Assembly: GCF_964019385.1 (NCBI RefSeq)
Contig: NC_088654.1
Span: 14,269,100 to 14,333,099 of the forward strand
DNA from: Sycon ciliatum
Taxonomy: Eukaryota; Porifera; Calcarea; Leucosolenida; Sycettidae
Reading direction: 5' to 3'
DNA length: 64,000 nt
In this document: positions 1,946 to 54,880 of the stretch, piece after piece
Layout: the number at the start of each line of letters is the position of its first letter
How positions within the stretch are numbered: the stretch's first letter is position 1
The notes under the pieces: model-generated
What the model was told of the DNA's origin: nothing
Databases searched by the model: none
What the model saw: only the letters and a program-made list of their open reading frames with translations
Translations under genes and position numbers: made by a program

Positions 1946-1994
1946 TTAATCCCCTAGCACCCAGCTTTTTCCCCTCTAAGTCAAATCTAACCAG

Positions 1995-2536
1995 AGTAGT
2001 AAGTGCGGGGCGGGTTCTGGTGCACTTTTTGACCTTTGACCTTTGGGCCAAATAAGGCACACTGTGTCGGGCTCGTTTGGTCTGGCTCGGGGACTCCCCC
2101 AGGGTTTGACCTTTGACCTTTGGGTTAAATAAGGCACACTGTGTCGGTCGTGCTTGGTCTGGCCCCGGGACCCCCCAGAGTTTGACCTTTGACCCCTGGC
2201 ATGCCATAAATGTCATTGTTAAGGTTCTTTTCCGTGGCGAACGTGCACTTGTGCACGTTCGGTGCATTCGCACCGGGGAGTAGTAAAATACGTACTATTC
2301 CCTGATTTGCACATCGTAGATGTGCATTGCATGCAGTGACATATTGCGCATGCGTGCATACGCACGCGGAGCGTGTGACCTTCAGTGGTCCTATGCGTGT
2401 GGAAAAGACGCAGTGCAACACAAGGTGTACTAGTACACGTGTCATTATACTACTCCATGATTCGCACTTCGTAGATGTGCAGCAAACAAGTTCACGTTCC
2501 GTGCATTCGTTTTATTTGCACATCGTAGATGTGCAC
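1995..2536 (+). repeat. Terminal block A, first left copy
   Basis: The outermost 542 bp of the element contains about 2.7 tandem units of roughly 76 bp, each with a TGACCTTTGACCT core and AAATAAGGCACACTGTGTCGG. These are followed by a series of short palindromes: 10-bp arms GAACGTGCAC around TT at 2239-2260, GCACATC-GTA-GATGTGC twice, and GTGTACTAGTACAC. Long ORFs through it on both strands are incidental. The same block occurs at 3487-4033 and inverted at 17616-18157. Confidence 0.9.
2030..2195. promoter_or_regulatory. Three DR1-type nuclear-receptor half-site pairs
   Basis: TGACCTTTGACCT at 2030-2042 and 2107-2119, and TGACCTTTGACCC at 2183-2195, read on the minus strand as AGGTCAAAGGTCA. 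That is the consensus direct repeat with one-base spacing bound by HNF4, RXR and COUP-TF family receptors in animals. The spacing is regular at about 77 and 76 bp. The same set is repeated near 3522-3687 and 17957-18122, giving nine sites at the element termini. A regulatory role is inference from the motif only. Confidence 0.5.
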
Positions 2537-3185
2537 TGATTGACAAGTTGCCCATACAGAGCATACCTAATCGGCTTTTCGATCGAGAATGTTCAAATTC
2601 GGCCATATTATGAGCTCCAAGATCAGAATTCGGCTCAACATAGTACTTGAAGTCACCGCTCCCATTACGTCAAGTACATTTACATACACCCTGTTGAAGC
2701 ACTGAAGCATCGGTTTTCGGGGAATTCAACATGCGAATTTTTGAAAATTCGGCGAAAAGATGGGTAATTTCTTCAAAACCACTGTTTTCGGCGAATTTTT
2801 CGCCCGGCCGATTAGGGAAATGCCTACTGTCCATGCAGGTCCATTAGATGCAAATTTCTATTTTGATCAGGATACAGTTAGAATCAACCGGCTACGCCCG
2901 GAGTATCATGCATTAAAACAATTATTGAAGGGGTGTCACAGTGAAGCAGTGTTGCTACGCACCACAAATCCCCTCTGCACTGCATCGAATCTATACTGGA
3001 GAATCCAGAGTGACCAGCAAAGAGTCACAACCCGCGGGTATCCAGTCACACTAAGGCATATCCACCATTCCCCACATATTCACTGTAACAAAACACAATA
3101 CTGTTCACTATAATACACTTTTATTTAAATGGACTTGGATGAGTCTGTAGAAGAGAACACAATGCACGCACACGCACGCATGCGC

Positions 3186-3225
<40 letters not shown>

Positions 3226-3486
3226 GCGCGCACACACATCTAGGTTATAGTGCTATACACGTATCTAGGATTTAGGAAGCACGAGAATATGTCGAAGCAC
3301 CCACACATATCCCTTCATGCAGTGTACTTCAGTAGCCCAACACATTACGACCGCTATAGCACAGGACCATCACAAAACACATTACGACTGCTATAGCACA
3401 GGACCATCACAAAACACTACACACTGTTACTACACTGCATACACAGTTACTACACTACGCCTGTTACAAGTACTTACAAATAATTT
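2537..3486 (+). repeat. Subterminal block B, first left copy
   Basis: This block starts TGACAAGTTGCCCATACAG and ends at ACAAATAATTT, where block A starts again. It contains a short inverted pair CCTAATCGGC (2570-2579) and GCCGATTAGG (2808-2817) that could bound a 250-bp MITE, a CA/CG microsatellite, and a 40-bp direct repeat (CTATAGCACAGGACCATCAC twice near 3353-3411). A 117-codon frame at 2760-3113 crosses the putative MITE end and does not look like a real gene. Confidence 0.8.
3188..3238. repeat. (CA)n-(CG)n microsatellite
   Basis: A run of CA dinucleotides passes into CGCGCGCG and back into CACACA. It is alternating purine-pyrimidine throughout, a sequence type prone to Z-DNA. Homologous tracts at 5054-5100 and 16919-16965 differ in length, which shows slippage after the arms were duplicated. 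Confidence 0.9.
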
Positions 3487-4033
3487 AGTAGTAAGTGCGG
3501 GGCGGGTTCTGGTGCACTTTTTGACCTTTGACCTTTGGGCCAAATAAGGCACACTGTGTCGGGCTCGTTTGGTCTGGCTCGGGGACTCCCCCAGGGTTTG
3601 ACCTTTGACCTTTGGGTTAAATAAGGCACACTGTGTCGGTCGTGCTTGGTCTGGCCCCGGGACCCCCCAGAGTTTGACCTTTGACCCCTGGCATGCCATA
3701 AATGTCATTGTTAAGGTTCTTTTCCGTGGCGAACGTGCACTTGTGCACGTTCGGTGCATTCGCACCGGGGAGTAGTAAAATACGTACTATTCCCTGATTT
3801 GCACATCGTAGATGTGCATTGCATGCAGTGACATATTGCGCATGCGTGCATACGCACGCGGAGCGTGTGACCTTCAGTGGTCCTATGCGTGTGGAAAAGA
3901 CGCAGTGCAACACAAGGTGTACTAGTACACGTGTCATTATACTACTCCATGATTCGCACTTCGTAGATGTGCAGCAAACAAGTTCACGTTCCGTGCATTC
4001 GTTTTATTTGCACATCGTAGATGTGCACTGATT
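3487..4033 (+). repeat. Terminal block A, second left copy
   Basis: The copy begins with the exact element terminus AGTAGTAAGTGCGGGG, here joined to the end of block B instead of to flanking DNA. It ends at CACTGATT, the target of the LINE tail that follows. The exact terminal start marks it as a head-to-tail duplication of the element end, not a random segmental duplication. Confidence 0.92.
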
Positions 4034-4400
4034 TTCTGTTGCTGGTGCTCTGCTGTGGAACGCTCTCCCTGGTGAGGTCCGCACAATTACCCGGCTACCT
4101 GAGTTTAAGCATGCATGTGTACCATACGCCTGTAGGGAGTAGTTGGAGTTGCTGCTGATCGCTCTGCTCTTCCTCCCCGTGCAGTTCAGTAACCCGCACG
4201 TAGTATCACAGATACATCGTATTCTCTCTCTCCCCCCGTTTACCCGCAGTTATTAGTATCCTATTCTCTTACTATGTGCTTCCATAGCTTTTACTATGTT
4301 CTTCCATAGCCACTTCTAGGCTAAGCCTTCGCCGTCATTTTATTGGGTCGTCATCCCGTTTGAATGTGCGAAGTGAAATAAAAACCAACCAACCAACCAA
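4034..4400 (+). mobile_element. 5'-truncated LINE 3' end with (AACC)n tail
   Basis: The 367-bp insert is flanked by CACTGATT at 4026-4033 and 4401-4408. It begins inside the reverse transcriptase C-terminus (VAGALLWNALPGEVR, stop at 4140-4142) and ends in ACCAACCAACCAACCAA. Such terminal tetranucleotide repeats are typical of CR1/L2-like LINEs. The empty site is present twice in this window, at 2529-2536 and in the right arm near 17616, so the insertion happened after the terminal duplication and only in this copy. Confidence 0.92.
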
Positions 4401-5052
4401 CACTGATTGACAAGTTGCCCATACAGAGCATACCTAATCGGCTTTTCGATCGAGAATGTTCAAATTCGGCCATATTATGAGCTCCAAGATCAGAATTCGG
4501 CTCAACATAGTACTTGAAGTCACCGCTCCCATTACGTCAAGTACATTTACATACACCCTGTTGAAGCACTGAAGCATCGGTTTTCGGGGAATTCAACATG
4601 CGAATTTTTGAAAATTCGGCGAAAAGATGGGTAATTTCTTCAAAACCACTGTTTTCGGCGAATTTTTCGCCCGGCCGATTAGGGAAATGCCTACTGTCCA
4701 TGCAGGTCCATTAGATGCAAATTTCTATTTTGATCAGGATACAGTTAGAATCAACCGGCTACGCCCGGAGTATCATGCATTAAAACAATTATTGAAGGGG
4801 TGTCACAGTGAAGCAGTGTTGCTACGCACCACAAATCCCCTCTGCACTGCATCGAATCTATACTGGAGAATCCAGAGTGACCAGCAAAGAGTCACAACCC
4901 GCGGGTATCCAGTCACACTAAGGCATATCCACCATTCCCCACATATTCACTGTAACAAAACACAATACTGTTCACTATAATACACTTTTATTTAAATGGA
5001 CTTGGATGAGTCTGTAGAAGAGAACACAATGCACGCACACGCACGCATGCGC

Positions 5053-5088
<36 letters not shown>

Positions 5089-5350
5089 GCGCGCACACAC
5101 ATCTAGGTTATAGTGCTATACACGTATCTAGGATTTAGGAAGCACGAGAATATGTCGAAGCACCCACACATATCCCTTCATGCAGTGTACTTCAGTAGCC
5201 CAACACATTACGACCGCTATAGCACAGGACCATCACAAAACACATTACGACTGCTATAGCACAGGACCATCACAAAACACTACACACTGTTACTACACTG
5301 CATACACAGTTACTACACTACGCCTGTTACAAGTACTTACAAATAATTTT
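4401..5350 (+). repeat. Subterminal block B, second left copy
   Basis: A second copy of 2530-3486 after the LINE tail. Here the sequence continues past ACAAATAATTTT into the spliced C2H2 gene region, as in the right arm, so this copy holds the ancestral junction. It includes a CA/CG microsatellite at 5054-5100. Confidence 0.9.
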
Positions 5351-5551
5351 GAAAACAAATGGCACATCCCGAAGACGGCAGCTAGCTCCAGACCTTCATA
5401 CATCATCATCATCTGTAAAACCAAGCATGAGCGCACACAAACACTATTAGTGTCACGAATACGGAAGCAGGGTAAGACAAGAGGATACGAAACAAGTAAG
5501 TATCGCTATAACGAGGGGGATAAGTATACATGTAGACAGAGCAGTGCTTAC

Positions 5552-5894
5552 TTACAGGGTCCGGATACGCTCCATGGCGTCCCGGTAGTCGGACTGCAAC
5601 AGCAGCCCGACCTGCCGGCCCTCCCAGTAACGGGTTCGATGGGCCGCACCCGCCAGGTGTGCGGCCACGGCCTGGCCTCCCACCAGCCTTTCTCCACTGT
5701 AAAAACGAAAGAAACCGCAGAAAGCACAGTGTCATAGAGCTCTTTTGTTGGGGGAGAGAGCTAGGAGCACTGCACACTTACCATTTGTCACAATATATTA
5801 TAAGAAAGAGGCGGCGCTTGACGCACCGCCTCAGGTGCTGAAACAGGGGTATAACCCCTGTAAGTTCCACACCACAGTGACATGTGAAAGCCAT
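5552..5894 (-). CDS. Two-finger C2H2-like protein, spliced (left arm copy)
   Basis: Mirror copy of 16125-16467. On the minus strand exon 1 is 5894-5782 and exon 2 is 5696-5552, separated by an 85-nt intron with GTAAGT and a polypyrimidine-AG end. The 85-residue product has a finger-like C-H-C-G..H-L-R-R-C segment and a second finger C-D-K-C with two histidines. It is transcribed toward the end of the element. See the right arm copy for detail. Confidence 0.55.
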
Positions 5895-6208
5895 ACTGTA
5901 ATGATACTGAAGTGAAGGTGTGAACCGCAAAGCAAGGCCTTTACCTTCTTCCTGTCGAATTCGCTCTCCAGCTGCATAACGACATCATCCGCTAAAATCC
6001 AATCATACCAAGTAATGCAAAGGTCATCAGTTGACCTTTTGGACTTTTCAACTCTTATCCAAAACCACCAAGAGGAAAAAAACGAGGATAATAATAATAA
6101 TCTTTATTTCAGGATTACGCAAAGGCTAACGCCTATCTGGGGATGAAGAAGACGTCAGTTGTAGAAGCGTTTGTGGAGGAGTTGTTACATTATTCTGAGT
6201 AAATAGAT
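5895..6208. other. Intergenic region between the divergent C2H2 and RING genes (left arm)
   Basis: On the minus strand this holds a possible upstream exon of the C2H2 gene (47 nt, near 5945-5991, between TTTTAG and GTAAAG). On the plus strand a run of ATA and CTTTATTTCAG precedes a short open stretch ending at a stop at 6199-6201, just before the ATG of the RING gene. Read on the minus strand, CCTGAAATAAAGATTATTATT resembles the 3' tail of a small retroposon. I cannot decide between tail and splice site. Confidence 0.4.
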
Positions 6209-6993
6209 ATGGCTGATACATTCGGTGTAGACGTGGACGACCGGTCGTGGTCTCTCACCACGGGTCCTTTACTAATAGAAAGGCGGACGCCAATAAGAAC
6301 TGTTGTGGACTTGGCAGATCAAAACGCGCAGCAAGAAATTTGGCACGTCGATGGTAGACTCCATCGGGAGGACAGACCAGCTCTTGTTGATAGTAGGGGA
6401 GTGTCCGCCTGGTGCTATGGAGGTCGCCTTCATCGCATTAATGAACCTGCTTGGATAGGACGGGGTAGCATCGAGTACTACCTCAACGGCGTCTAGAGCC
6501 GGCGGTCCTGCAGTCAGTTATTGTGACGCCACATACTGTATTCTACGGTGGTATCACCACGGAAGGCTCCACAGGGAGAATGCGCCAGCGGTGATACGCA
6601 GGGAAGGTAACAATCGTGTACGGGAGTGGTACCGATACAACCTTCGGCATAGGGAAGATGGACCTGCTTTCATCTCTCAGGAGGAGGAGGGTGTCTATCA
6701 GTGGTACCTCAACGGGGTGTATTACGGTGACCACCATCAAGACCAGGCAATACACCCCATGGAGCTGCAGTACACCAATGTAGTACCTACTAAGGTAGAC
6801 TCGTCAGCAATAAGTCATGAGTCCATTTGTGTGATTAGTCAGGATACCCTGGACCGTCCTCTATCCAAGTTGGAGCGCGGTCATGAATTTCACTTCCACT
6901 GTATCAAGGAGTGGATCAGTTCTGCCCCTAAGCCCTACTTGCCCAACCTGCCGCTACTCCATGACTGCTGAGAACTTGGTTGAGTTCTTGTAG
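6209..6993 (+). pseudogene. LHR..PA-repeat plus RING-type E3-like protein, two frameshifts (left arm)
   Basis: The first frame (ATG 6209, stop 6494-6496) and the second (to 6969) carry repeats of the form W-x-x-x-G-R-L-H-R-x-x-x-P-A, visible as DGRLHREDRPALV, GGRLHRINEPAWI, GRLHRENAPAVI and NLRHREDGPAFI. Such repeats are common in proteins of giant viruses and relatives. The C-terminus is a RING: C-V-I-S, then E-R-G-H-E-F-H-F-H-C-I-K-E-W-I. The final C-P-T-C-R pair is present in the DNA but in another frame, ending at TAG 6991-6993. A second frame change lies near 6490. Both changes are in both arms, so they predate the palindrome. A RING E3 role is inferred, and the gene looks inactive unless frameshifting is used. 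Confidence 0.75.
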
Positions 6994-7002
6994 TAATACA
7001 TG

Positions 7003-7389
7003 ACACAGTTGCATGTAGGCGACTACGAATGACCAGTCATGTGCTACTGATGGACACGAACACGCCACCCTAAGTAGCCATGAGCGGCTATTTGGGCAAG
7101 GGCAACAAAGCACCTCGTGGGCGGCCAAGGTTGACACTAGCCACAAGTCTGGTCGCTCAGTTGAATAAGCTGGGTGTGCCCATGAAGACCATGGAAGCCC
7201 TTTCCAGGTGCCGGCAACAAGCAGAGGACAAGACAGACTGGAAGAAACTGTGCAGCTCGACACTCGAGGACAAATCAGTATCAACAGCTTCTACACCTTG
7301 CTGATGATGCTCACAAGACAGAAGTGGGAAAAACCACTGAATTTCTTTATTTAGTGCTCAACTACGCGAAATGTGCTATTATTATTATT
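7003..7389 (+). mobile_element. LINE 3' end fragment with (ATT)n tail (left arm)
   Basis: It is flanked by ATACATG at 6996-7002 and 7390-7396. The frame 7080-7304 encodes a typical LINE C-terminus (GRPRLTLATSLVAQL, then RCRQQAEDKTDWKKL). It is followed by a short 3' UTR and ATTATTATTATT. It landed three bases after the stop of the RING gene. It is present in both arms, so it predates the duplication. Confidence 0.82.
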
Positions 7390-7451
7390 ATACATGTTCA
7401 ATTGTACACAGTCTGGCTGACTGCCATTCTCTACCACACATTACGGGACAC

Positions 7452-8390
7452 TGTTGTGGTTGTCGTCGCTATCGTCGTCGTTGTTGATGTTGTTGTTGGT
7501 TGTTGTCGTCGTTATCGTCGTCGTTGTTGATGTTGTTGTTGGCTGTTGCTGTCGGTTGTTGTCGGTTGGTGTCGTTTGCTGTTGGTTGTTGTTGGTTATT
7601 GTCAGTTGTTGTCGGTTGTTGTTGGTTGTTGTTGGTTGTTGTTGGTTGTTGTTGGTTGTTGTTGATTGTTGTCGGTTGTTGGGTGTTGTTGTCGGTTGTT
7701 GGGTGTTGTTGTTGGCTGTTGGGTGTTGTTGTTGTCGGTTGTTGGGTGCTGTTGTTGGTTGTTGTTGGTTGTTGTTGGTTGTTGCCGGATGTTGTCGGTT
7801 GTTGTTGGTTGTTGTTGGTTGTTGTTGTCGGTTGTTGTCGGTTGTTGTCGGTTGTTGTTGGTTGTTGTTGTTGGTTGTTGTTGGTTGTTGTTGGTTGTTG
7901 TTGAGTGTTGTTGTTGGTTGTTGTTGATTGTTGTCGGTTGTTGGGCGTTTTTGTCGGTTGTTGGGTGTTGTTGTTGGTTGCTGGGTGTTGTTGTTGTCGG
8001 TTGTTGGGTGTTGTTGTTGGTTGTTGTTGGTTGTTGTTGGTTGTTGCCGGATGTTGTCGGTTGTTGTTGGTTGTTGTTGTCGGTTGTTGTCGGTTGTTGT
8101 CGGTTGTTGTTGGTTGTTGTTGGTTGTTGTTGGTTGTTGTTGGTTGTTGTTGGCTGTTGTTGGTTGTTGTTGTCGGTTGTTGTTGGTTGTTGTTGGTAGT
8201 TGTTGTCGGTTGCTGTCGGTTGTTGTCGGTTGTTGTCGGTTGTTGTTGTTTGTTGTTGTTTGTTGTTGGTTGTTGTTGGTTGTTGTTGGTTGTTGTTGGC
8301 TGTTGTTGTTTGTTGTTGGTTGTTGTTGTCGGTTGTTGGGTGTTGTTGTTGGTTATTGTCGGTTGTTGTCGGTTGTTGTCGGTTGTTGTG
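7452..8390. repeat. TTG-rich minisatellite, about 940 bp (left arm)
   Basis: Irregular units of the type GTTGTTGTTG and GTTGTCGGTT repeat without interruption. Every frame is open: Leu/Val/Cys-rich on the plus strand and Gln/Asn/Thr-rich on the minus strand. These reading frames are a property of the repeat and not evidence of genes. The right arm copy is 33 bp longer and has a few substitutions. Confidence 0.95.
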
Positions 8391-8392
8391 TT

Positions 8393-8406
8393 TTAACCCT
8401 TTGCGG
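8393..8406 (+). repeat. TTAA-CCCTTTGCGG, possible piggyBac-type end (left)
   Basis: TTAA followed by CCCTTTGCGG directly abuts the TTG array. The mirror copy at 13577-13590 faces it, so the axis-proximal 5.2 kb (zinc ribbon, 256-aa and 122-aa genes) is bracketed by piggyBac-like termini. Because the region is a palindrome, a single old terminus would give the same picture. The sequence resembles the real piggyBac-like end at 54881 (CCCTTTGTGG). Confidence 0.4.
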
Positions 8407-8900
8407 TGCATCAGTCATTAACGACTGATATTGTGTACATACCGTAAAACTGTCGTAACTCCATCGATTTTAGTCCTGTTGCAAATATCGAAATATGTAG
8501 ATTAATCGTTATTTTGTTCATTATCCAGGAGGATGTTGCTATGATTCAGTACCATTTTTTCGCATAATGAGACAAGTTTGTGTAACGTTAGTGTGACGTG
8601 GGTATGCTGATTGGATGCGAGGTGGTGAGAGTATGCTGATTGGCCGATAACAATTAGTGGAAGGGATAAAGTAATGCGCTGCTTGTGCAGCGTAACCAAA
8701 CACATGGTCTGTGGGAAACACCCTAGTAAAATAAATAAAATAATAATAACATGAATTGCCACCGGCACTTGAGAGACTCGAGCCCCGCCACCTTGTTCAA
8801 ATCGGACTTGGTAGCTTCGTATTGGAACTTAATCTTCTTCTTTTTGAGGTATGACCGTACAAAACGCGCTTGGAGTTTTCATTTATTTTATTTTTTTATT
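8407..8900. other. Gene-poor AT-rich stretch (left arm)
   Basis: Short frames here on both strands show no recognisable domain. The end near 8880-8905 is A/T-rich and, on the minus strand, contains several AATAAA hexamers directly after the stop of the 122-codon ORF, a plausible poly(A) region for the outward transcripts. I see nothing else. Confidence 0.5.
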
Positions 8901-9269
8901 TTATTTTTTCATTGCAACTTTTTTAGCAGATGTCCACTCGTGAAACAACGGTGAATCTGGAACGAATAAATGGTCCATGCCAAAGGCATGACGAGTCTCG
9001 AAGTCTTCACATTCATGATGGAACCTTGTCATGATTGACGCATTCCTTGATGGTGCGCACATGAAATCAACCTGGCTCATCTTTTCCAATTCCATTCTTT
9101 TCACATCCTGCAACCCATACCCTACTAGTATCAGTGGGGACGCTAGAATCAGAAGAGGCAAGGCAGCACTCTTCCGTGGATGTATTACTCGACACAACAC
9201 CACCCATACTTGTTTTCTAGAAGTTTTGAATATAATGATATATTGCAGTAGGAAGTAGTATACAGTCAA
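8901..9269 (-). CDS. Unknown ORF with one membrane-like segment (left arm copy)
   Basis: Mirror copy of 12714-13082. The frame has no ATG at its beginning and contains a hydrophobic stretch AALPLLILASPLILVGYGL. It lies about 60 bp downstream of the 256-aa gene on the same strand. See the right arm copy. Confidence 0.4.
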   Translation of the reverse strand: MTVYYFLLQYIIIFKTSRKQVWVVLCRVIHPRKSAALPLLILASPLILVGYGLQDVKRMELEKMSQVDFMCAPSRNASIMTRFHHECEDFETRHAFGMDHLFVPDSPLFHEWTSAKKVAMKK

Positions 9270-9329
9270 ATAGGATAGGATAAGAATGAATGATCAGCTG
9301 TCTGATAAAGAATGCAGTTCATTAAAGAC

Positions 9330-10100
9330 TTATTGGAAGCTCTCTACCAGCTGATCGTCTTGTTGAACGGCGACACTGCATAATGATATGAAGCTCTCAG
9401 TTAGCTGTTTCAGTTCCGTGGTAGAAAGTGTCATGTGCGCGTCCAGAGCACGATGAAAACATCTGGGCTCCACGTGGATGCAGACGATTGGAGCAACAGT
9501 AAGACGTACCTTCAACGCCTGCTCGTCAATGTCGAGGGAGACTGCCCCGGGGTAGATGAAAACATCTTGTTCCACATCCAGTTCGAACGAGCTGGTCGGG
9601 ACTAGCTTGCTTTCACCGTTGATGTACACCCGACATTGACCGTCGGACGAACGTGATGGGTAGAAGTTGGTCTTGATCTTCTCCACACGTCCTCTTCGGA
9701 GAGTGTCACGGAGCGATGGACAAGTCTTGATCAAGTTCGTAATGATGAACTCAGTGGACTTATTCAGTTCGATGTAAACCTGTCCTTGAGCATCTTTGCG
9801 AGCTGTTGCCGTACTACCACAGGCTGGTAGAGCTCCTGAAGGGAAGTACATCTTATAACCAGGCTTGTAGAAGGATCTACCTGATGACTTGTAGGACAGT
9901 TGCATGTCCTCCTGAAACCCATCCACCACAATCTCTTTGTGGAGCTTGGTAGGAGCAGGTGGCACATAGCGACGCTTAGCCGGTACTGCGTTCGAAGAGA
10001 GCACAACTTGAGGAGGGTCAGCAGGAAGAGCGGAATTCTTCCTCACCCGTCGCTCGTATAGGGAATCCATCTTCCAGGAAGCGAAGGCAGAACAACTCAT
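9330..10100 (-). CDS. 256-aa unknown protein with own promoter (left arm copy)
   Basis: Identical in translation to the right arm copy at 11883-12653. It is transcribed outward from the axis, with TATAAATA about 50 bp upstream of its ATG and CCAAT-type repeats beyond. That both copies are intact, while neighbouring genes are decayed, suggests recent activity or recent duplication. Confidence 0.7.
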   Translation of the reverse strand: MSCSAFASWKMDSLYERRVRKNSALPADPPQVVLSSNAVPAKRRYVPPAPTKLHKEIVVDGFQEDMQLSYKSSGRSFYKPGYKMYFPSGALPACGSTATARKDAQGQVYIELNKSTEFIITNLIKTCPSLRDTLRRGRVEKIKTNFYPSRSSDGQCRVYINGESKLVPTSSFELDVEQDVFIYPGAVSLDIDEQALKVRLTVAPIVCIHVEPRCFHRALDAHMTLSTTELKQLTESFISLCSVAVQQDDQLVESFQ

Positions 10101-10149
10101 CAGCACTGTATTCGATGAACGAATGACTCAACTACAGGACAACCATCTG

Positions 10150-10321
10150 TATTTATACAAGTCAGAGACGGGGGCGGATTGAAATGTTAAAAATATGTGT
10201 CAGCTAGATCAACCAATCACCATCAAGCCCGACACAAACATTTGCCCAATCAGCATTGAGCCCGCCAAAAACATTTGACCAACCAGCATCAAACTCGCCA
10301 AAAACATTTTGTCCAGTCAGC
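10150..10321 (-). promoter_or_regulatory. TATA/CCAAT-type promoter of the 256-aa gene (left arm)
   Basis: Mirror copy of 11662-11833, with TATAAATA at 10157-10150 on the minus strand and 3.5 imperfect repeats of 33 bp each containing ATTGG-like inverted CCAAT boxes. Confidence 0.6.
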
Positions 10322-10344
10322 GGCATGCCCACCAAATAATTATC

Positions 10345-11034
10345 TCATCTTAAAGATTCCTTACATGATACAGCCACTTTAGTGAACTGATACAGTATGG
10401 AAATAAGATCAAAGTCAAACGTGTGCAAGTTCTGAATCACGTGATCAAGTGAATAGGTTTCCCAACAATAGGCATCAATCAATGATGTCATAAGAGATGT
10501 ATCAGATGGAGATAAAATCAGCAAATTCGTACGCAACGTGGACAGTTGAGATGATGACACCATCCTGGTCGACTCCATGAGATGCAGTACATATAGGAGT
10601 GGAAAATGCTGAGGAAGAGGTTTCATGATTCGACTGAACCTCAACCATGATACATTGCTACGAGGTAAGTAGGAACGCAGTTTACGTAGTACATCCACAT
10701 TCGTATCGTATACCACGCAGGATAATGCTATAGCATAGTTTAAACTCTTGTACAAACAGGGTTTTTTCATCGCAAGTAACTGCTCCCGAAGAGGGTGTAC
10801 GCAAAGCTGATCGGATAAGAGTTCAGTTTTCGAAAGAAAATGCAAAAGATGACGATCCACACCGCATAACCGCTCATGTACAGCGTAACGCTTCTTCATC
10901 AAACTAGATCTCCTATGCACATCATCTTCAGGGAAGTAAATCACCGCCATGACAAGTCCACACGAAGAACACACGTATCTTCCTTCATGTAAAACATGAT
11001 CAAGATACGTGTGTTCTTCGTGTGGACTTGTCAT
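10345..11034 (-). CDS. Zinc-ribbon protein, possibly TFIIB-like, reading across the palindrome axis
   Basis: This 229-codon frame begins with an ATG inside the right arm (11034), crosses the 22-nt spacer and continues into the left arm. The segment EGRYVCSSCGLVMAV matches the second half of a TFIIB-type zinc ribbon (G-x-x-x-C-x-x-C-G-L-V). The first C-x-x-C that such ribbons need is absent, because the sequence upstream is the mirror image of the gene itself. The remainder is helical and could be a diverged cyclin-like fold (KSLNYAIALSCVVYD). TFIIB-like and other zinc-ribbon factors occur in large DNA viruses. Function here is an inference and the N-terminus is an artefact of the inversion. 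Confidence 0.5.
   Translation of the reverse strand: MTSPHEEHTYLDHVLHEGRYVCSSCGLVMAVIYFPEDDVHRRSSLMKKRYAVHERLCGVDRHLLHFLSKTELLSDQLCVHPLREQLLAMKKPCLYKSLNYAIALSCVVYDTNVDVLRKLRSYLPRSNVSWLRFSRIMKPLPQHFPLLYVLHLMESTRMVSSSQLSTLRTNLLILSPSDTSLMTSLIDAYCWETYSLDHVIQNLHTFDFDLISILYQFTKVAVSCKESLR
10981..11002. other. Palindrome axis and spacer
   Basis: The 22 unpaired bases between the arms contain their own small hairpin: TCATGT and ACATGA around AAA (10985-10999), centred within half a base of the main axis. Such a micro-hairpin at the axis is what fold-back priming of a broken or nascent strand would leave. Confidence 0.9.
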
Positions 11035-11638
11035 GGCGGTGATTTACTTCCCTGAAGATGATGTGCATAGGAGATGTAGTTTGATGAAGAAGCGTTACGC
11101 TGTACATGAGCGGTTATGCGGTGTGGATCGTCATCTTTTGCATTTTCTTTCGAAAACTGAACTCTTATCCGATCAGCTTTGCGTACACCCTCTTCGGGAG
11201 CAGTTACTTGCGATGAAAAAACCCTGTTTGTACAAGAGTTTAAACTATGCTATAGCATTATCCTGCATAGTATACGATACGAATGTGGATGTACTACGTA
11301 AACTGCGTTCCTACTTACCTCGTAGCAATGTATCATGGTTGAGGTTCAGTCGAATCATGAAACCTCTTCCTCAGCATTTTCCACTCCTATATGTACTGCA
11401 TCTCATGGAGTCGACCAGGATGGTGTCATCATCTCAACTGTCCACGTTGCGTACGAATTTGCTGATTTTATCTCCATCTGATACATCTCTTATGACATCA
11501 TTGATTGATGCCTATTGTTGGGAAACCTATTCACTTGATCACGTGATTCAGAACTTGCACACGTTTGACTTTGATCTTATTTCCATACTGTATCAGTTCA
11601 CTAAAGTGGCTGTATCATGTAAGGAATCTTTAAGATGA
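11009..11638 (+). pseudogene. Zinc-ribbon protein, right arm copy without a start
   Basis: Same protein as 10345-11034 from YVCSSCGLVM onward, with a few substitutions (Ser to Cys in the HRR-S-SLMK segment and Val to Ile in SCVVYD). An in-frame stop lies in the spacer just before the ribbon. The only initiators are a GTG or an internal ATG at 11032, beyond the Cys pair. This copy therefore lost its N-terminus when the palindrome formed. Confidence 0.55.
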
Positions 11639-11661
11639 GATAATTATTTGGTGGGCATGCC

Positions 11662-11833: not shown

Positions 11834-11882
11834 CAGATGGTTGTCCTGTAGTTGAGTCATTCGTTCATCGAATACAGTGCTG

Positions 11883-12653: not shown

Positions 12654-12713
12654 GTCTTTAATGAACTGCATTCTTTATCAGACAGCTGATCATTCATTCT
12701 TATCCTATCCTAT

Positions 12714-13082
12714 TTGACTGTATACTACTTCCTACTGCAATATATCATTATATTCAAAACTTCTAGAAAACAAGTATGGGTGGTGTTGTGTCGAGTAATA
12801 CATCCACGGAAGAGTGCTGCCTTGCCTCTTCTGATTCTAGCGTCCCCACTGATACTAGTAGGGTATGGGTTGCAGGATGTGAAAAGAATGGAATTGGAAA
12901 AGATGAGCCAGGTTGATTTCATGTGCGCACCATCAAGGAATGCGTCAATCATGACAAGGTTCCATCATGAATGTGAAGACTTCGAGACTCGTCATGCCTT
13001 TGGCATGGACCATTTATTCGTTCCAGATTCACCGTTGTTTCACGAGTGGACATCTGCTAAAAAAGTTGCAATGAAAAAATAA
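12714..13082 (+). CDS. Unknown ORF with one membrane-like segment (right arm)
   Basis: The 122-codon open frame starts without an ATG (a TTG is the first possible initiator). It holds a basic stretch, a hydrophobic segment AALPLLILASPLILVGYGL, then a polar tail with MTRFHHECEDFETRHAFGMD. The first ATG is after the hydrophobic part and would give about 65 residues. A TTCTAG-like splice acceptor precedes another ATG in a different frame at 12776, whose 46-residue product starts MGGVVSSNTS, a possible N-myristoylation signal. I cannot tell which frame is real. Several AATAAA hexamers follow the stop (13079-13102). Confidence 0.4.
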   Translation: MTVYYFLLQYIIIFKTSRKQVWVVLCRVIHPRKSAALPLLILASPLILVGYGLQDVKRMELEKMSQVDFMCAPSRNASIMTRFHHECEDFETRHAFGMDHLFVPDSPLFHEWTSAKKVAMKK

Positions 13083-13102
13083 AATAAAAAAATAAAATAA
13101 AT
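13079..13102 (+). terminator. Cluster of AATAAA poly(A) signals
   Basis: Overlapping AAATAAAATAAAAAAATAAA sequence directly follows the stop of the 122-codon ORF. It would end outward transcripts of the zinc-ribbon, 256-aa and 122-codon genes. The mirror copy is at 8881-8904. Confidence 0.5.
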
Positions 13103-13576
13103 GAAAACTCCAAGCGCGTTTTGTACGGTCATACCTCAAAAAGAAGAAGATTAAGTTCCAATACGAAGCTACCAAGTCCGATTTGAACAAGGTGGCGGGG
13201 CTCGAGTCTCTCAAGTGCCGGTGGCAATTCATGTTATTATTATTTTATTTATTTTACTAGGGTGTTTCCCACAGACCATGTGTTTGGTTACGCTGCACAA
13301 GCAGCGCATTACTTTATCCCTTCCACTAATTGTTATCGGCCAATCAGCATACTCTCACCACCTCGCATCCAACCAGCATACCCACGTCACACTAACGTTA
13401 CACAAACTTGTCTCATTATGCGAAAAAATGGTACTGAATCATAGCAACATCCTCCTGGATAATGAACAAAATAACGATTAATCTACATATTTCGATATTT
13501 GCAACAGGACTAAAATCGATGGAGTTACGACAGTTTTACGGTATGTACACAATATCAGTCGTTAATGACTGATGCA
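13103..13576. other. Gene-poor stretch (right arm)
   Basis: Mirror of 8407-8900. Short frames on either strand carry no recognisable domain. One substitution relative to the left arm lies near 13372. Confidence 0.5.
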
Positions 13577-13590
13577 CCGCAAAGGGTTAA
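13577..13590 (-). repeat. CCCTTTGCGG-TTAA, possible piggyBac-type end (right)
   Basis: Mirror of 8393-8406. Together they bracket the axis-proximal 5.2 kb. Confidence 0.4.
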
Positions 13591-13592
13591 AA

Positions 13593-14565
13593 CACAACAA
13601 CCGACAACAACCGACAACAACCGACAATAACCAACAACAACACCCAACAACCGACAACAACAACCAACAACAAACAACAACAGCCAACAACAACCAACAA
13701 CAACCAACAACAACCAACAACAAACAACAACAAACAACAACAACCGACAACAACCGACAACAACCGACAGCAACCGACAACAACTACCAACAACAACCAA
13801 CAACAACCGACAACAACAACCAACAACAGCCAACAACAACCAACAACAACCAACAACAACCAACAACAACCAACAACAACCGACAACAACCGACAACAAC
13901 CGACAACAACAACCAACAACAACCGACAACATCCGGCAACAACCAACAACAACCAACAACAACCAACAACAACACCCAACAACCGACAACAACAACACCC
14001 AGCAACCAACAACAACACCCAACAACCGACAAAAACGCCCAACAACCGACAACAATCAACAACAACCAACAACAACACTCAACAACAACCAACAACAACC
14101 AACAACAAGCAACAACAACAACCAACAACAACCGACAACAACCGACAACAACCGACAACAACAACCAACAACAACCAACAACAACCGACAACATCCGGCA
14201 ACAACCAACAACAACCAACAACAACCAACAACAGCACCCAACAACCGACAACAACAACACCCAACAGCCAACAACAACACCCAACAACCGACAACAACAC
14301 CCAACAACCGACAACAATCAACAACAACCAACAACAACACTCAACAACAACCAACAACAACCAACAACAACCAACAACAACCAACAACAACCAACAACAA
14401 CCGACAACAACTGACAATAACCAACAACAACCAACAGCAAACGACAACAACCGACAACAACCGACAGCAACAGCCAACAACAACATCAACAACGACGACG
14501 ATAACGACGACAACAACCAACAACAACATCAACAACGACGACGATAGCGACGACAACCACAACAG
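13593..14565. repeat. CAA-rich minisatellite, about 970 bp (right arm)
   Basis: Reverse complement of the left TTG array. It has a 33-bp insertion relative to the left arm near the distal end, which adds AACAACAACCAACAACA-type units, plus a few substitutions. Plus-strand frames read Gln-Asn-Thr repeats. Confidence 0.95.
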
Positions 14566-14629
14566 TGTCCCGTAATGTGTGGTAGAGAATGGCAGTCAGC
14601 CAGACTGTGTACAATTATTGAACATGTAT

Positions 14630-15016
14630 AATAATAATAATAGCACATTTCGCGTAGTTGAGCACTAAATAAAGAAATTCAGTGGTTTTTCCCACTTCTG
14701 TCTTGTGAGCATCATCAGCAAGGTGTAGAAGCTGTTGATACTGATTTGTCCTCGAGTGTCGAGCTGCACAGTTTCTTCCAGTCTGTCTTGTCCTCTGCTT
14801 GTTGCCGGCACCTGGAAAGGGCTTCCATGGTCTTCATGGGCACACCCAGCTTATTCAACTGAGCGACCAGACTTGTGGCTAGTGTCAACCTTGGCCGCCC
14901 ACGAGGTGCTTTGTTGCCCTTGCCCAAATAGCCGCTCATGGCTACTTAGGGTGGCGTGTTCGTGTCCATCAGTAGCACATGACTGGTCATTCGTAGTCGC
15001 CTACATGCAACTGTGT
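14630..15016 (-). mobile_element. LINE 3' end fragment with (ATT)n tail (right arm)
   Basis: Mirror of 7003-7389, with the same C-terminal reverse transcriptase residue pattern (frame 14939-14715) and the same CATGTAT flanks. A 3-bp insertion (ATT) near 14615 distinguishes this arm just outside the tail. Confidence 0.82.
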
Positions 15017-15025
15017 CATGTATTA

Positions 15026-15810
15026 CTACAAGAACTCAACCAAGTTCTCAGCAGTCATGGAGTAGCGGCAGGTTGGGCAAGTAGGGCTTAGGGGCAGAAC
15101 TGATCCACTCCTTGATACAGTGGAAGTGAAATTCATGACCGCGCTCCAACTTGGATAGAGGACGGTCCAGGGTATCCTGACTAATCACACAAATGGACTC
15201 ATGACTTATTGCTGACGAGTCTACCTTAGTAGGTACTACATTGGTGTACTGCAGCTCCATGGGGTGTATTGCCTGGTCTTGATGGTGGTCACCGTAATAC
15301 ACCCCGTTGAGGTACCACTGATAGACACCCTCCTCCTCCTGAGAGATGAAAGCAGGTCCATCTTCCCTATGCCGAAGGTTGTATCGGTACCACTCCCGTA
15401 CACGATTGTTACCTTCCCTGCGTATCACCGCTGGCGCATTCTCCCTGTGGAGCCTTCCGTGGTGATACCACCGTAGAATACAGTATGTGGCGTCACAATA
15501 ACTGACTGCAGGACCGCCGGCTCTAGACGCCGTTGAGGTAGTACTCGATGCTACCCCGTCCTATCCAAGCAGGTTCATTAATGCGATGAAGGCGACCTCC
15601 ATAGCACCAGGCGGACACTCCCCTACTATCAACAAGAGCTGGTCTGTCCTCCCGATGGAGTCTACCATCGACGTGCCAAATTTCTTGCTGCGCGTTTTGA
15701 TCTGCCAAGTCCACAACAGTTCTTATTGGCGTCCGCCTTTCTATTAGTAAAGGACCCGTGGTGAGAGACCACGACCGGTCGTCCACGTCTACACCGAATG
15801 TATCAGCCAT
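15026..15810 (-). pseudogene. LHR..PA-repeat plus RING-type protein, two frameshifts (right arm)
   Basis: Same gene as 6209-6993 with the same frame interruptions. The shared lesions show that the gene was already broken in the half-element that was copied, or that the frame changes are functional. It is transcribed toward the axis, convergent with the outward genes. Confidence 0.75.
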
Positions 15811-16124
15811 ATCTATTTACTCAGAATAATGTAACAACTCCTCCACAAACGCTTCTACAACTGACGTCTTCTTCATCCCCAGATAGGCGTTAGCCTTTGC
15901 GTAATCCTGAAATAAAGATTATTATTATTATCCTCGTTTTTTTCCTCTTGGTGGTTTTGGATAAGAGTTGAAAAGTCCAAAAGGTCAACTGATGACCTTT
16001 GCATTACTTGGTATGATTGGATTTTAGCGGATGATGTCGTTATGCAGCTGGAGAGCGAATTCGACAGGAAGAAGGTAAAGGCCTTGCTTTGCGGTTCACA
16101 CCTTCACTTCAGTATCATTACAGT
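15811..16124. other. Intergenic region with possible C2H2 upstream exon (right arm)
   Basis: Between GATTTTAG and GTAAAG lies a 47-nt candidate exon (16028-16074). It begins CGGATGATG and is phase-compatible with the exon starting at 16124, adding about 15 residues before the MAFTCHCG start. CCTGAAATAAAGATTATTATT near 15907 looks like a retroposon tail or a poly(A) signal. Confidence 0.4.
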
Positions 16125-16467
16125 ATGGCTTTCACATGTCACTGTGGTGTGGAACTTACAGGGGTTATACCCCTGTTTCAGCACCTGAGGCGGTGCGTCA
16201 AGCGCCGCCTCTTTCTTATAATATATTGTGACAAATGGTAAGTGTGCAGTGCTCCTAGCTCTCTCCCCCAACAAAAGAGCTCTATGACACTGTGCTTTCT
16301 GCGGTTTCTTTCGTTTTTACAGTGGAGAAAGGCTGGTGGGAGGCCAGGCCGTGGCCGCACACCTGGCGGGTGCGGCCCATCGAACCCGTTACTGGGAGGG
16401 CCGGCAGGTCGGGCTGCTGTTGCAGTCCGACTACCGGGACGCCATGGAGCGTATCCGGACCCTGTAA
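16125..16467 (+). CDS. Two-finger C2H2-like protein, spliced (right arm)
   Basis: Exon 1 (16125-16237) starts MAFTCHCGVELTG and ends at a GTAAGTG donor. An 85-nt intron with a pyrimidine-rich TTTCGTTTTTACAG end leads to exon 2 (16323-16467, stop TAA). Splicing restores a cysteine codon at the joint, giving the finger C-D-K-C, 12 residues, H-L-A-G-A-A-H. The first finger is C-H-C ... H-L-R-R-C. The product is 85 residues with a helical, arginine-rich tail. The GTAAGT overlapping the stop and a TTTTACAG near 16605 suggest a further, non-coding exon. A nucleic-acid-binding role is inferred from the fingers only. Confidence 0.6.
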
Positions 16468-16669
16468 GTAAGCACTGCTCTGTCTACATGTATACTTATC
16501 CCCCTCGTTATAGCGATACTTACTTGTTTCGTATCCTCTTGTCTTACCCTGCTTCCGTATTCGTGACACTAATAGTGTTTGTGTGCGCTCATGCTTGGTT
16601 TTACAGATGATGATGATGTATGAAGGTCTGGAGCTAGCTGCCGTCTTCGGGATGTGCCATTTGTTTTCA

Positions 16670-16932
16670 AAATTATTTGTAAGTACTTGTAACAGGCGTA
16701 GTGTAGTAACTGTGTATGCAGTGTAGTAACAGTGTGTAGTGTTTTGTGATGGTCCTGTGCTATAGCAGTCGTAATGTGTTTTGTGATGGTCCTGTGCTAT
16801 AGCGGTCGTAATGTGTTGGGCTACTGAAGTACACTGCATGAAGGGATATGTGTGGGTGCTTCGACATATTCTCGTGCTTCCTAAATCCTAGATACGTGTA
16901 TAGCACTATAACCTAGATGTGTGTGCGCGCGC

Positions 16933-16966
<34 letters not shown>

Positions 16967-17615
16967 GCGCATGCGTGCGTGTGCGTGCATTGTGTTCTCT
17001 TCTACAGACTCATCCAAGTCCATTTAAATAAAAGTGTATTATAGTGAACAGTATTGTGTTTTGTTACAGTGAATATGTGGGGAATGGTGGATATGCCTTA
17101 GTGTGACTGGATACCCGCGGGTTGTGACTCTTTGCTGGTCACTCTGGATTCTCCAGTATAGATTCGATGCAGTGCAGAGGGGATTTGTGGTGCGTAGCAA
17201 CACTGCTTCACTGTGACACCCCTTCAATAATTGTTTTAATGCATGATACTCCGGGCGTAGCCGGTTGATTCTAACTGTATCCTGATCAAAATAGAAATTT
17301 GCATCTAATGGACCTGCATGGACAGTAGGCATTTCCCTAATCGGCCGGGCGAAAAATTCGCCGAAAACAGTGGTTTTGAAGAAATTACCCATCTTTTCGC
17401 CGAATTTTCAAAAATTCGCATGTTGAATTCCCCGAAAACCGATGCTTCAGTGCTTCAACAGGGTGTATGTAAATGTACTTGACGTAATGGGAGCGGTGAC
17501 TTCAAGTACTATGTTGAGCCGAATTCTGATCTTGGAGCTCATAATATGGCCGAATTTGAACATTCTCGATCGAAAAGCCGATTAGGTATGCTCTGTATGG
17601 GCAACTTGTCAATCA
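16670..17615 (-). repeat. Subterminal block B (right arm)
   Basis: Single inverted copy of 2537-3486. It includes a GT/CG microsatellite at 16919-16965 and the CCTAATCGGC inverted pair. Confidence 0.92.
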
Positions 17616-18157
17616 GTGCACATCTACGATGTGCAAATAAAACGAATGCACGGAACGTGAACTTGTTTGCTGCACATCTACGAAGTGCGAATCATGGAGT
17701 AGTATAATGACACGTGTACTAGTACACCTTGTGTTGCACTGCGTCTTTTCCACACGCATAGGACCACTGAAGGTCACACGCTCCGCGTGCGTGTGCACGC
17801 ATGCGCAATATGTCACTGCATGCAATGCACATCTACGATGTGCAAATCAGGGAATAGTACGTATTTTACTACTCCCCGGTGCGAATGCACCGAACGTGCA
17901 CAAGTGCACGTTCGCCACGGAAAAGAACCTTAAGAATGACATTTATGGCATGCCAGGGGTCAAAGGTCAAACTCTGGGGGGTCCCGGGGCCAGACCAAGC
18001 ACGACCGACACAGTGTGCCTTATTTAACCCAAAGGTCAAAGGTCAAACCCTGGGGGAGTCCCCGAGCCAGACCAAACGAGCCCGACACAGTGTGCCTTAT
18101 TTGGCCCAAAGGTCAAAGGTCAAAAAGTGCACCAGAACCCGCCCCGCACTTACTACT
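17616..18157 (-). repeat. Terminal block A (right arm)
   Basis: Inverted copy of 1995-2536 ending exactly at ACTACT before AACCAG. It differs from the left copies by single bases near 17783 and 17926. Its three DR1-type sites read AGGTCAAAGGTCA on the plus strand. Confidence 0.92.
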
Positions 18158-21127
18158 AACCAGGCCTACCAGTATATGTCCTACTCACGATGCAGAACCC
18201 CTCCCTGCCCTTCTTGCTGATTTGACATCTAGCCATCCACCCTACACGCCCATAACACATTCATTCCACCTTAGGATAGGCCAACTCAACTGCCAAAGCG
18301 CCACTCATAAGATCCCAGTCATTGAGTCGCTACTACACACTGCGTCCCTTGACCTCCTATTCCTCTGTGAGACGTGGTTCGACCAATCACTGCCGGATGC
18401 AGCCATCTCAATTCCCGGATACAGCCTCCTGCGTAAAGATAGAGACGGTGCCCGACACTCCGCGATAGGTGGAGGACTTGCTGTTTATATTCGACAATCG
18501 CTTATGTGCCATTTCCAACGGCGGACCGACCTTGAATGCAAACTGGAGCACATTTGCGTGGAATTTATAGAATCGCAGAACAGTCGAAAGAATACATTCC
18601 ACATGTTTTACAGGCCCCCTTACCGATCATCAGCAGAAAAACACGACTTTTTGTGTCCTTCCAGTCCACCATTGCCAACGCACTGTCAGCCTCAGGCACG
18701 ACAGTCATTCTCGGTGATTTCAATGCCAAACTCCGACAGTGGAACGCAACAGATGTTGATACGGCAGAGGGCAAACAGCTAGCAGGATTGTTAGACGACC
18801 TTGCACTACAGCAAATGGTCCGAAACACCGCAACGCGATACTCAGCTACGGGTAGCCAGTCATCACTTCTCGACCTGGTTATCACAGACGCAGAGCATCG
18901 TGTATCCGACCTTGAAGTCCTAGATCCGCTATCAGACCACTGTCCCATAATCTTTAAATATCTCTCAGGAAAGCACACCCCAAAGCACCCGCCGCCCTGC
19001 TTTGTACCAGACTACGCGAACACTGACTTTCAATCTCTACGACAGAAACTTTCATCTCTTCCACTCCGGGAGTGTATGCTCGGTGCTTCCACCATCGAGA
19101 GTGCGTGGTGGGCATGGGAGTCATGCATCACACAAGCCATTGCCAGCTGCTTAGCGTACAGACGAGTTTCATCTCGAAGACAGCAAACCAAGCCTTGGTT
19201 CACCCCGCATCTGCATCACCTTCATCGCCAGAAGCAGCGCCTTTTCCGTGCCGCCAAGCGCCACCAAACAGTAGCATACTGGTTAACCTACAAGGCCCAG
19301 AGGAATGCATATCAGAATCAGTTAAGAAATGCCAAGACCCTGTACTTCAAGCGCCTCAGTGAGAATATTCACGATGAGCAAGATGCCCACCTTTGGTGGA
19401 AGAAAGCCAAGACACTTGCCAACATCTCCTGTAAGAAAGATAAAGTTCCTGACCTAACGTGTGAGGGCTACACGGCACAGAGCGAACCAGAGAAAGCAGA
19501 AATGCTCGCGAAGGTATTTGAGCGCCAGTGCACTCCTGCTCACGGTGCAGGTACAATACCAGCACCAGCCGACGACTGTCCGAATGAATTATTCTCTCTG
19601 CCAGTCTTGGCCGAATCCTCAGTGTACCGGGTGCTCCGAAGGCTCCCGCAGCATAAGGCAACAGGCGGGAACATCTCGAACAGGATCCTCCGAGAGATCG
19701 CACCATGTATAACGTCCTCTGTTACCAACCTGTTTAACGCTAGCCTCACCTTAGGTGAGTTTCCTAGTGCCTGCAAGCTGGGAACAGTAATCCCCATATT
19801 TAAAAATAAAGGTAACCCGCGTGATCCCTCCAACTACCGCCCTATAACCCTACTCCCAGCTATTGCGAAAGCACTAGACAAGATTGTCGCCACCAAATTC
19901 GGTCACTATCTCGAGGTCAACAACATCATTGTCCCGGAACAGTTCGGCTTTGTCCGTGATCACTCCACAGTTTACCAGCTGATACAGCTCACTACTAAGA
20001 TCGCCTCGACCATGGATAAACGCATCCCTTACGATGCTGCATTTCTCGATTTTGCCAAGGCCTTCGATAAAGTGCCGCATGACGTGCTTCTCCAGCAACT
20101 CGGGACTATCTGCGATGCTCCGGCTACGAGTTGGTTTAAGAACTACCTCGATACGCGTACATTCAGCGTCCGAGTCCAACACCATCTGTCCTCCCCACGT
20201 CCCGTCAAGTCTGGAGTACCCCAGGGTTCCCACCTCGGGCCATTGCGTTTCCTGGTACATATCAACAGCCTACCCAGTGCCTCGAAACGCAACCAGCACG
20301 CTGATGTTTACCTGTTCGCGGATGACACCGCCGTCGGCCAAGCACGAACCAAAGGTACCAGCCCAATGGAGACTGCCCTGCAGGACACATTTGCCTGGGC
20401 CGACCGAGTAGGCGGAACCTTCAACCCATCGAAAACCGTTGTTATCTCATTCGCTGAGGAAGGAGCTGCAGAGACCATCCGCGGTATCCATCCGTCAACC
20501 AGTCACCGTCACCTGGGAGTGTTGTTGAGTGAAACACTTAGCTTCCAGGAGCATATTGAACAGACAATAAGCAAGTTTAGACAACGCTGCGTTCTTCTGT
20601 GCCATATGGCTGACCGTTTAACAGGAGACATCGTCAGGAAGCTGTACCTTACGTATGTCCGCCCCACAGCAGAATACGCCGCCCCAGTATGGGAGTCCTC
20701 CCTCTCTGCTGCACAGCGGCTCACCCTTGAACGGCTGCAAGCCAGAGTAGCTCGCACAGTCATGCGGCTTGAGAGATGCCCTTGCCCATCAGACGAGCCC
20801 AAGTCATCATTGTTTAAACAGCTGGGGTGGCCAAGTCTATCCTGGCGCAGGAAGATCGCCTGCCTTATGGAATTCTTCCATTTGGTCACCACCCAACCAG
20901 AACTTTTTGAAGCAGCGGGATACTGCCCCACGCGTAGTCGCCGCCGCCAACTCGCATTCACTCTGCCACGGGTTGGGAAACACGCCAGGAGGTCATTTCT
21001 CTTCCGCACCGCTACTGTCTGGAATGCCTTGCCCGCAGACCTGAGAGCCACAGCCTCGCAGTCCCTGTTTCACAGTCACATTTGCACGCACTTCTCTGAC
21101 ACCAAACACAATGCCACTCCTCACTGA

Positions 21128-31697: not shown

Positions 31698-31814
31698 TAT
31701 GATAACCCTACCCCGACTCATTGATCCTGCTCTTTTCTTTCTGATCACGTCATACTGAACTACTCCTTGTGGCTCAGTTAAGAAGCTGCCTTATTGGCCA
31801 TGGTCTATTGTGGC

Positions 31815-54764: not shown

Positions 54765-54880
54765 GATGATAACCCTACTCATCGATCCTGTTCTTTTCTT
54801 TCTGAACACGTCATACTGAACTACTCCTTGCAGCTCAGCTATGAAGCTGCCTTATTGGCCATGGTCTATCGTGGCATTAA

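Follow-up and report, generated by a model that had tools for sequence, protein, structure and literature searches.

How does a 16-kb palindrome come to lie in the genome of a calcareous sponge with the marks of a transposon at its tips? The question is raised by a stretch of 64,000 nucleotides from Sycon ciliatum (contig NC_088654.1 of assembly GCF_964019385.1, positions 14,269,100 to 14,333,099; hereafter the window, whose own numbering we use), in which 1995-18157 is a palindrome with two arms of 7.1 kb each, flanked on both sides by AACCAG. Our analysis makes it likely that this element is a copy of a non-autonomous, helper-dependent satellite of Polintons (Mavericks), which moves as a complete palindrome, ~12-19 kb long and bounded at both tips by Polinton ends.

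The palindrome and its target site

Aligned to its own reverse complement, the element is 99.28% identical over 4401-17618. The left arm differs from the right by 9 mismatches and 44 gap bases over 7155 columns (parts found on the left only being excluded), and the whole arm is a terminal inverted repeat (TIR). A chance origin of this self-complementarity is ruled out by five mononucleotide shuffles of the element, in which the best inverted alignments spanned 16-22 columns. The 16-base terminus AGTAGTAAGTGCGGGG starts at 1995 on the forward strand and occupies 18142-18157 on the reverse strand, AGTAGT...ACTACT is present at both tips, and AACCAG stands at 1989-1994 and at 18158-18163. An earlier reading of the same letters (the original prediction) had described the flanking repeats and identical inverted termini just as we find them. 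It had also called the interior wholly self-complementary, which is right for the aligned span and wrong for a 1492-bp unit and a 367-bp insertion, both on the left side only, and for a 20-nt central loop.

According to the literature, Polintons/Mavericks make 6-bp target duplications and have 5'-(AGT)2//(ACT)2-3' ends (PMC8097293), and are 15-20 kb in size (PMC4028283). As originally proposed, the element behaves like a single transposon: its duplications are 6 bp long and its (AGT)2 ends are of the Polinton type. When the two flanks were joined around a single AACCAG and the resulting 300 bases were searched for in the window's own genome (538 Mb in 313 contigs, the scope of all genome-wide counts below), 29 other matches of 96-99% identity were found among the 40 of 758 candidates that were scored. 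All of them are unbroken across the insertion point, 28 spanning query bases 102-300 and one spanning 104-300; the element therefore entered a copy of a repeat precisely. Because an endonuclease-reverse transcriptase open reading frame (ORF; 18536-21127) adjoins the insertion, we take the target repeat to be a long interspersed nuclear element (LINE).

The extra 1492-bp unit at the left tip is repeated from 3487, and comparison with this neighbour gives 0 mismatches, gaps only. At another locus (L057, C3:28533407-28535693) a terminal piece likewise abuts the AGTAGT end of the next element, and the 6-bp duplication is found only beyond the outer tips. Both joins look like autointegration, in which an integrase would have attached an end to the inside of a sister molecule ahead of insertion; the unit in the window is possibly a false duplication.

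A dispersed family with the ends of complete Polintons

The 16-base end has 211 exact occurrences genome-wide (103 forward and 108 reverse; 0 for the reversed pattern used as a control), of which 100 places were listed. A matching 6-bp duplication was present in each of 25 further end pairs besides the window (10/10, 4/4, 9/9 and 2/2 in separate sets). The original prediction had asked for such a search and had seen a danger to its view in copies with duplications of other lengths; there were none among the 25. Fourteen of these pairs are palindromic, six by direct comparison and eight by divergent pairs of p265 (our name for an uncharacterised arm ORF) or by centre matches between the ends. 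Eight are Polintons, classed by a protease-integrase match between the ends (in one case broken by stops), and three are unclassed (C4:41537475, C8:7661540 and C3:28533407). Judged from the end coordinates, the palindromic pairs are 12.0-18.8 kb long and the Polintons 14.2-16.4 kb.

The first ten facing end pairs were fetched, each as two pieces. Six are palindromes kin to the window copy, with ~86-98% identity over aligned stretches longer than 1 kb, and in two of them (L011/L012 and L021/L022) the centre is single-copy. The other four are Polintons, which have in common with the palindrome the termini, 350-550 bp of the end at 84-91% identity, and a short stretch near 8191-8678. Of 144 scored p265 matches, 120 lie two by two in divergent orientation. 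This gives 60 pairs on many contigs, the two starts of a pair being 1.6-3.8 kb from each other; 60 is a lower bound, since 144 of 423 first-look candidates were scored.

The four non-palindromic elements are the full version that the original prediction had suggested looking for, with integrase and PolB matches between the shared ends. ORFs for an ATPase, a protease-integrase, a capsid candidate and PolB match in all four, some of them broken or partly missing. In one copy (L013/L014) Pfam detects an RVE integrase above its cut-off (E 1.1e-10) and, below the cut-offs, an adenovirus-type protease (E 4.5e-4), a chromodomain (E 2.2e-4) and an AAA-type ATPase (E 0.008 at best). PolB lies in fragments 42-73% identical to L059, the sequence that underlies a Pfam DNA_pol_B_2 match; a Pfam scan of the fragments themselves did not name the family directly, and they contain NNSVFGK and YTDTDS, which we take to be PolB motifs. 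An ORF of 537 aa, by its position presumably a capsid candidate, hit no family in a Pfam scan. The genome holds at least 30 full-length protease-integrase ORFs at >=98%. There are also further Polinton families, with a protease-integrase at 53-63% identity and many members near-identical in score (lower bounds). In a complete Polinton a GTTGTTG-type array with a conserved stretch (~8506-8676) lies ~0.6 kb from one end (L013:1093-1544); in the palindrome the same type of array (7452-8389 and 13594-14564) is ~5 kb or more from the end.

The element thus inserts as Polintons do, making 6-bp duplications and sharing its ends with the ordinary Polintons of this genome. The original prediction had considered a separate, undescribed class of giant fold-back element. 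"Giant fold-back" is fair for the shape, but the non-palindromic elements with the same terminus are ordinary Polintons, and because 350-550 bp of the end are shared with four of them at 84-91%, a Polinton-dependent derivative describes the palindrome better than an unrelated class does.

Arm-specific variants and the centre

We compared the arms over a 1.65-kb segment, from p265 to the zinc-ribbon gene, in 17 copies. Inside single copies the arms differ by 0-0.30%, and two main clades are 3.5-4.6% apart where both segments exceed 1.4 kb (down to 2.8% with shorter segments). At 118 columns each of the alternative letters occupies the two arms of at least one copy; in the long run the two arms evolve jointly. 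The differences between arms number 42, in 33 columns: 17 (8 columns) are heterozygous at the same column in two or three copies, in corresponding arms, 3 share their letter with other copies, and 22 are private.

The shared differences bear directly on how the family moves. L032 and L033, whose target duplications differ (GGTGTC and CACGGC), have four heterozygous columns in common, with the order of the arms mirrored; the palindrome can therefore move whole. Three heterozygous columns are common to L027 and L034, and one to L029-L031. The family moves as a palindrome, on the strength of this one clear pair and two supporting groups, and by analogy the window copy itself presumably entered as one. 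As to whether such an element entered as a unit or acquired its form later by conversion of one half, both offered by the original prediction, the first holds for the family (L032/L033 variants, 60 divergent pairs), and conversion of an ordinary Polinton after insertion is rejected on the arm-specific variants that L032 and L033 share.

A variant that is single-armed in L032 and in L033 is double-armed in L029-L031, and one that is single-armed in L034 is double-armed in L027. Such one-arm and both-arm states among sister copies are intermediate stages of homogenisation. In the six fetched copies, 2-15 mismatches per copy separate the arms over the aligned stretches. All six in L027 fall within the innermost 1.3 kb of its 7.2-kb arm; among the 15 in L011, four are at or beyond the tip and eight in one 12-base cluster.

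Dozens of copies have the same centre architecture. A stem ending CTCATACCCTC with an asymmetric core CCAACACGTCGG is found in many of them (156 matches with <=2 mismatches on both strands, control 0), an intact centre giving two matches and the tolerance letting the perfect form count too. The asymmetric core is found in both clades, and a perfectly palindromic one in 12 copies. At other centres there are one-sided losses, some common to several copies (L029-L031; L021 and L052). Six matches without a zero-mismatch partner were read, and all six centres keep both arms: in three the palindrome is complete but the stem carries substitutions, and in the other three a portion of one arm is gone at the centre; in one of the latter (L049/L080), ~1.9 kb of foreign sequence also precedes the point where the second arm starts again.

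With up to 3 mismatches allowed, the 20-nt-loop centre of the window recurs at C9:711800 alone, where the arms are ~3.8% away; a centre of this type was therefore probably made twice. The junction expected here would be the same for snap-back copying as for a deletion of the centre at microhomology. We also considered "flip" and "flop" forms of the core CCAACACGTCGG, as in hairpin telomeres, and dropped them, since a palindrome inserted either way yields both trivially.

Arm genes, rival explanations and meaning

The coordinates of the element's parts are collected in Table 1. No polymerase-like, recombinase-like, integrase, protease, ATPase or capsid family was found by Pfam in nine ORFs of the element, and ten ORFs of the Polinton L013/L014 gave no tblastn match to the palindrome (E 0.01). 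Nor did four helper PolB pieces (E 0.01) or the L059 PolB (E 1) reveal a protein-primed DNA polymerase B in 1995-18157. The absence of visible Polinton replication and capsid genes, noted at the outset by the original prediction, is thereby borne out by both kinds of search, and the palindrome is not a complete Polinton, its defining genes having been looked for and not found.

Table 1. Parts of the palindromic element, in window coordinates
Feature	Position	Strand	Remarks
Left target-site duplication AACCAG	1989..1994		6 bp; unoccupied copies of the target repeat
Right target-site duplication AACCAG	18158..18163		6 bp; unoccupied copies of the target repeat
Extra terminal unit	1995..3486	+	First 1492 bp of the arm, abutting another AGTAGT end at 3487 (an end linked to the interior of an element)
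Left arm of palindrome	3487..10981	+	Self-alignment, arm comparison
Right arm of palindrome	11002..18157	-	Self-alignment, arm comparison
Central loop	10982..11001		20 nt between ATCTT and AAGAT (5-bp inverted repeat, inside the arm in other copies)
Insertion, left arm only	4034..4400		367 bp, (AACC)n tail, 8-bp duplication CACTGATT; probably a LINE 3' fragment
77-bp tandem repeat, terminal region	3520..3686		Also at 2028-2194 and 17958-18124
(GTTGTTGTTG)n-type array	Left 7452..8389; right 13594-14564		Tandem repeat scan
122-aa ORF, function unassigned	Left 4612..4977; right 17042-17407	+ (left); - (right)	Full-length and open in 10/12 arm pieces of six copies
Two overlapping ORFs	Left 6203..6968; right 15048-15816	+ (left); - (right)	HRE-x-x-PA-type repeats (by eye) and RING-like zinc finger
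p265, left copy	9333..10127	-	Uncharacterised ORF
p265, right copy	11856..12650	+	Uncharacterised ORF
Zinc-ribbon (TFIIB-like, weak) gene, left copy	10348..10981	-	N-terminal part missing where the centre is rearranged
Zinc-ribbon (TFIIB-like) gene, right copy	11002..11638	+	ORF, Pfam scan

Among the nine ORFs, the zinc-ribbon protein and p108 alone match the co-resident Polintons, p108 through the shared repeat-side stretch. The zinc-ribbon protein matches Pfam Zn_Ribbon_TF below the cut-off (E 0.036) and is 35% identical, over 151 columns, to a protein found in all four Polinton copies; the 5' end of its gene is longer in other copies than in the left copy of the window. The RING-like finger matches zf-rbx1 at E 1.3e-5, its 25.7 bits being below the cut-off of 31. 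p265 is full-length and open in 9 of 10 arm pieces and stop-free in 139 of the best 144 matches, a set biased to intact copies. Ratios of non-synonymous to synonymous change (dN/dS) are 0.21-0.99 for p265 and 0.46-1.07 for the zinc-ribbon gene, with few changes counted. Comparison with PDB gave no match to p265 up to E 5 and nothing meaningful for the zinc-ribbon protein, the putative capsid protein or a PolB fragment. A scan of viral_contigs, sensitive to close relatives only, found no relative of p265, the Polinton ATPase or the putative capsid protein, and six ORFs hit no PHROGs family below E 0.1.

Elsewhere in the window there is an 11-bp satellite (ATTCTTTCACC), with ~229 copies at 97% in 60486-63000 and 47 copies at 94% in 33054-33579, and there are long direct repeats of 78-87% identity (28993-32610, 40232-44049 and 51868-54880).

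The alternatives differ in how much of this they explain. A serious possibility, if not a probable one, is that helper enzymes move the palindrome but that hairpin and snap-back replication play no part: after insertion, the arms would be homogenised as those of sex-chromosome palindromes are, through ordinary gene conversion on the chromosome or recombination between the arms. Differences are lost in tracts, as in L027, where the mismatches left are confined to the inner 1.3 kb, sister copies carry the same variant in one or both arms, and some moves leave arm differences intact, all of which speaks for it. Set against it, without excluding it, are the few arm mismatches (2-15 per copy in the window copy and in the six fetched copies, whose arms were compared for the most part) though copies differ by up to several percent, and the fact that one of the four Polintons keeps 20 mismatches in 334 columns of its end repeats, so that inverted repeats are not always homogenised. 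We consider it improbable that the element is of an autonomous, undescribed class, replicated and moved by its own p265, zinc-ribbon and RING-like proteins and Polinton-like in its ends only. The isolation of most of its ORFs from those of the Polintons and the largely intact state of p265 would suit this; but complete Polintons have the same 6-bp duplication and the same ends, including the 350-550 bp at 84-91%, the nine ORFs scanned include nothing polymerase- or recombinase-like, and coding constraint is weak.

Very improbable, in our view, is a separate making of every palindrome on site, by half-conversion of an ordinary Polinton or by two half-element insertions. The same centre stem and core in many copies, the arm-specific variants inherited across two independent insertions, and the absence of the palindrome interior from the four Polintons read all speak against it, as does the lack of a non-palindromic bearer among the six unpaired centres read (24 unpaired p265 matches were read in part); in its favour, centre variants differ among copies, and the 20-nt-loop centre in two copies with arms ~3.8% apart implies that a centre can be made twice. 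An assembly artefact, by inverted duplication or mis-join, is hardly credible. Long palindromes are hard to assemble, and the extra 1492-bp left unit, which differs from its neighbour by gaps alone, may have been duplicated falsely, but dozens of copies are spread over many contigs, with private arm differences and one-sided losses, and those checked have different flanks and perfect duplications outside both tips; on these flanks and duplications we reject it.

Several observations also weigh against a helper-dependent satellite that moves as a palindrome. The strongest case for such movement is one insertion pair, L032/L033; L027/L034 and L029-L031 may instead reflect segmental duplication, and the sole column shared by L029-L031 sits at a loss breakpoint. 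Of the 144 p265 matches, 24 are unpaired, although an unpaired match need not be non-palindromic, since not every candidate was scored and L011/L012 is without one arm's copy. The arms are not reset at every move, which counts against a strict hairpin cycle and leaves room for ordinary gene conversion, and constraint on the arm genes, given dN/dS from small counts, is weak or unproven. Save for the shared end, the stretch near 8191-8678 and the 35%-identical protein, the palindrome interior has no source in the four Polintons read, and no non-palindromic progenitor turned up among the unpaired matches that were read. Finally, helper replication and any hairpin form are what we infer from sequence.

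For the Polinton satellite that we favour, the shared ends and duplications suggest mobilisation in trans by Polinton enzymes. Helper Polintons would supply protein-primed replication and integrase, with an origin carried by each tip. One arm would be copied from the other if the displaced single strand folded into one long hairpin, or if the nascent strand snapped back on reaching the centre; such copying, or else recombination or gene conversion, may reset the arms from time to time. The founder may have been a single fold-back at a short inverted repeat, with centres later trimmed or re-made. The (AGT)2 ends agree with a jumping-back step in protein-primed replication, which one account proposes for Mavericks (PMC8097293). 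A more specific version, which we regard as rather doubtful, has as its free state a hairpin of 7-8 kb, closed at one tip and capped by protein at the other end, which would be unfolded to the palindrome, perhaps packaged in a helper capsid, and inserted whole; within the hairpin each arm would serve to correct the other, so that repair would be built in and the duplicated genes would evolve in concert.

Among known systems, Polintons/Mavericks (adintovirus-like) are similar in the 6-bp duplications, end motif, TIRs, size, the 350-550 bp of the end and the distant zinc-ribbon protein (35%). The palindrome differs from them in having no polymerase, integrase, protease, ATPase or capsid gene that we could find, in being nearly all inverted repeat, and in its other interior ORFs, each present twice. 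A literature search of titles and abstract openings, incomplete in coverage, found no palindromic Polinton described, and "palindrom" does not occur in the text of PMC8097293. Foldback-like transposons (FB, Galileo) have very long, internally repetitive inverted repeats, according to a published description (PMC2775673). The palindrome is like them in its long, internally repetitive TIRs (77-bp and (GTTGTTGTTG)n-type tandem repeats), and unlike them in its Polinton ends, its 6-bp duplications (in the window and all 25 pairs) and its ORF-carrying arms of several kb; target duplications in FB and the P superfamily are 7-9 bp.

Palindromic defective adenovirus genomes and yeast hairpin linear plasmids are helper-dependent deletion derivatives of protein-primed linear genomes, in the form of inverted dimers or hairpins, and by analogy the palindrome may work like such a helper-dependent defective genome. 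Those, however, are laboratory or episomal forms, whereas the palindrome forms a family that has diversified and is scattered over the chromosomes, with target duplications. In giant sex-chromosome palindromes the arms are kept identical while the pair evolves, but these are fixed loci, and the palindrome described here is mobile and multi-copy.

Long palindromes tend to be lost or rearranged, but in this genome palindromes of 12-19 kb are what an abundant mobile family transmits, with at least 60 p265 pairs beside at least 30 full-length protease-integrase ORFs of the Polintons that have the same ends. The homogenisation of inverted repeats can be traced in it stage by stage, as arm-specific variants are followed through insertions. 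The one genome also offers a test of whether Polintons replicate by a protein-primed, strand-displacing route, the palindrome being the expected by-product that such a system would maintain. If the proposed dependence is true, it would amount to helper-satellite parasitism among Polintons, comparable to that of virophages and giant viruses.

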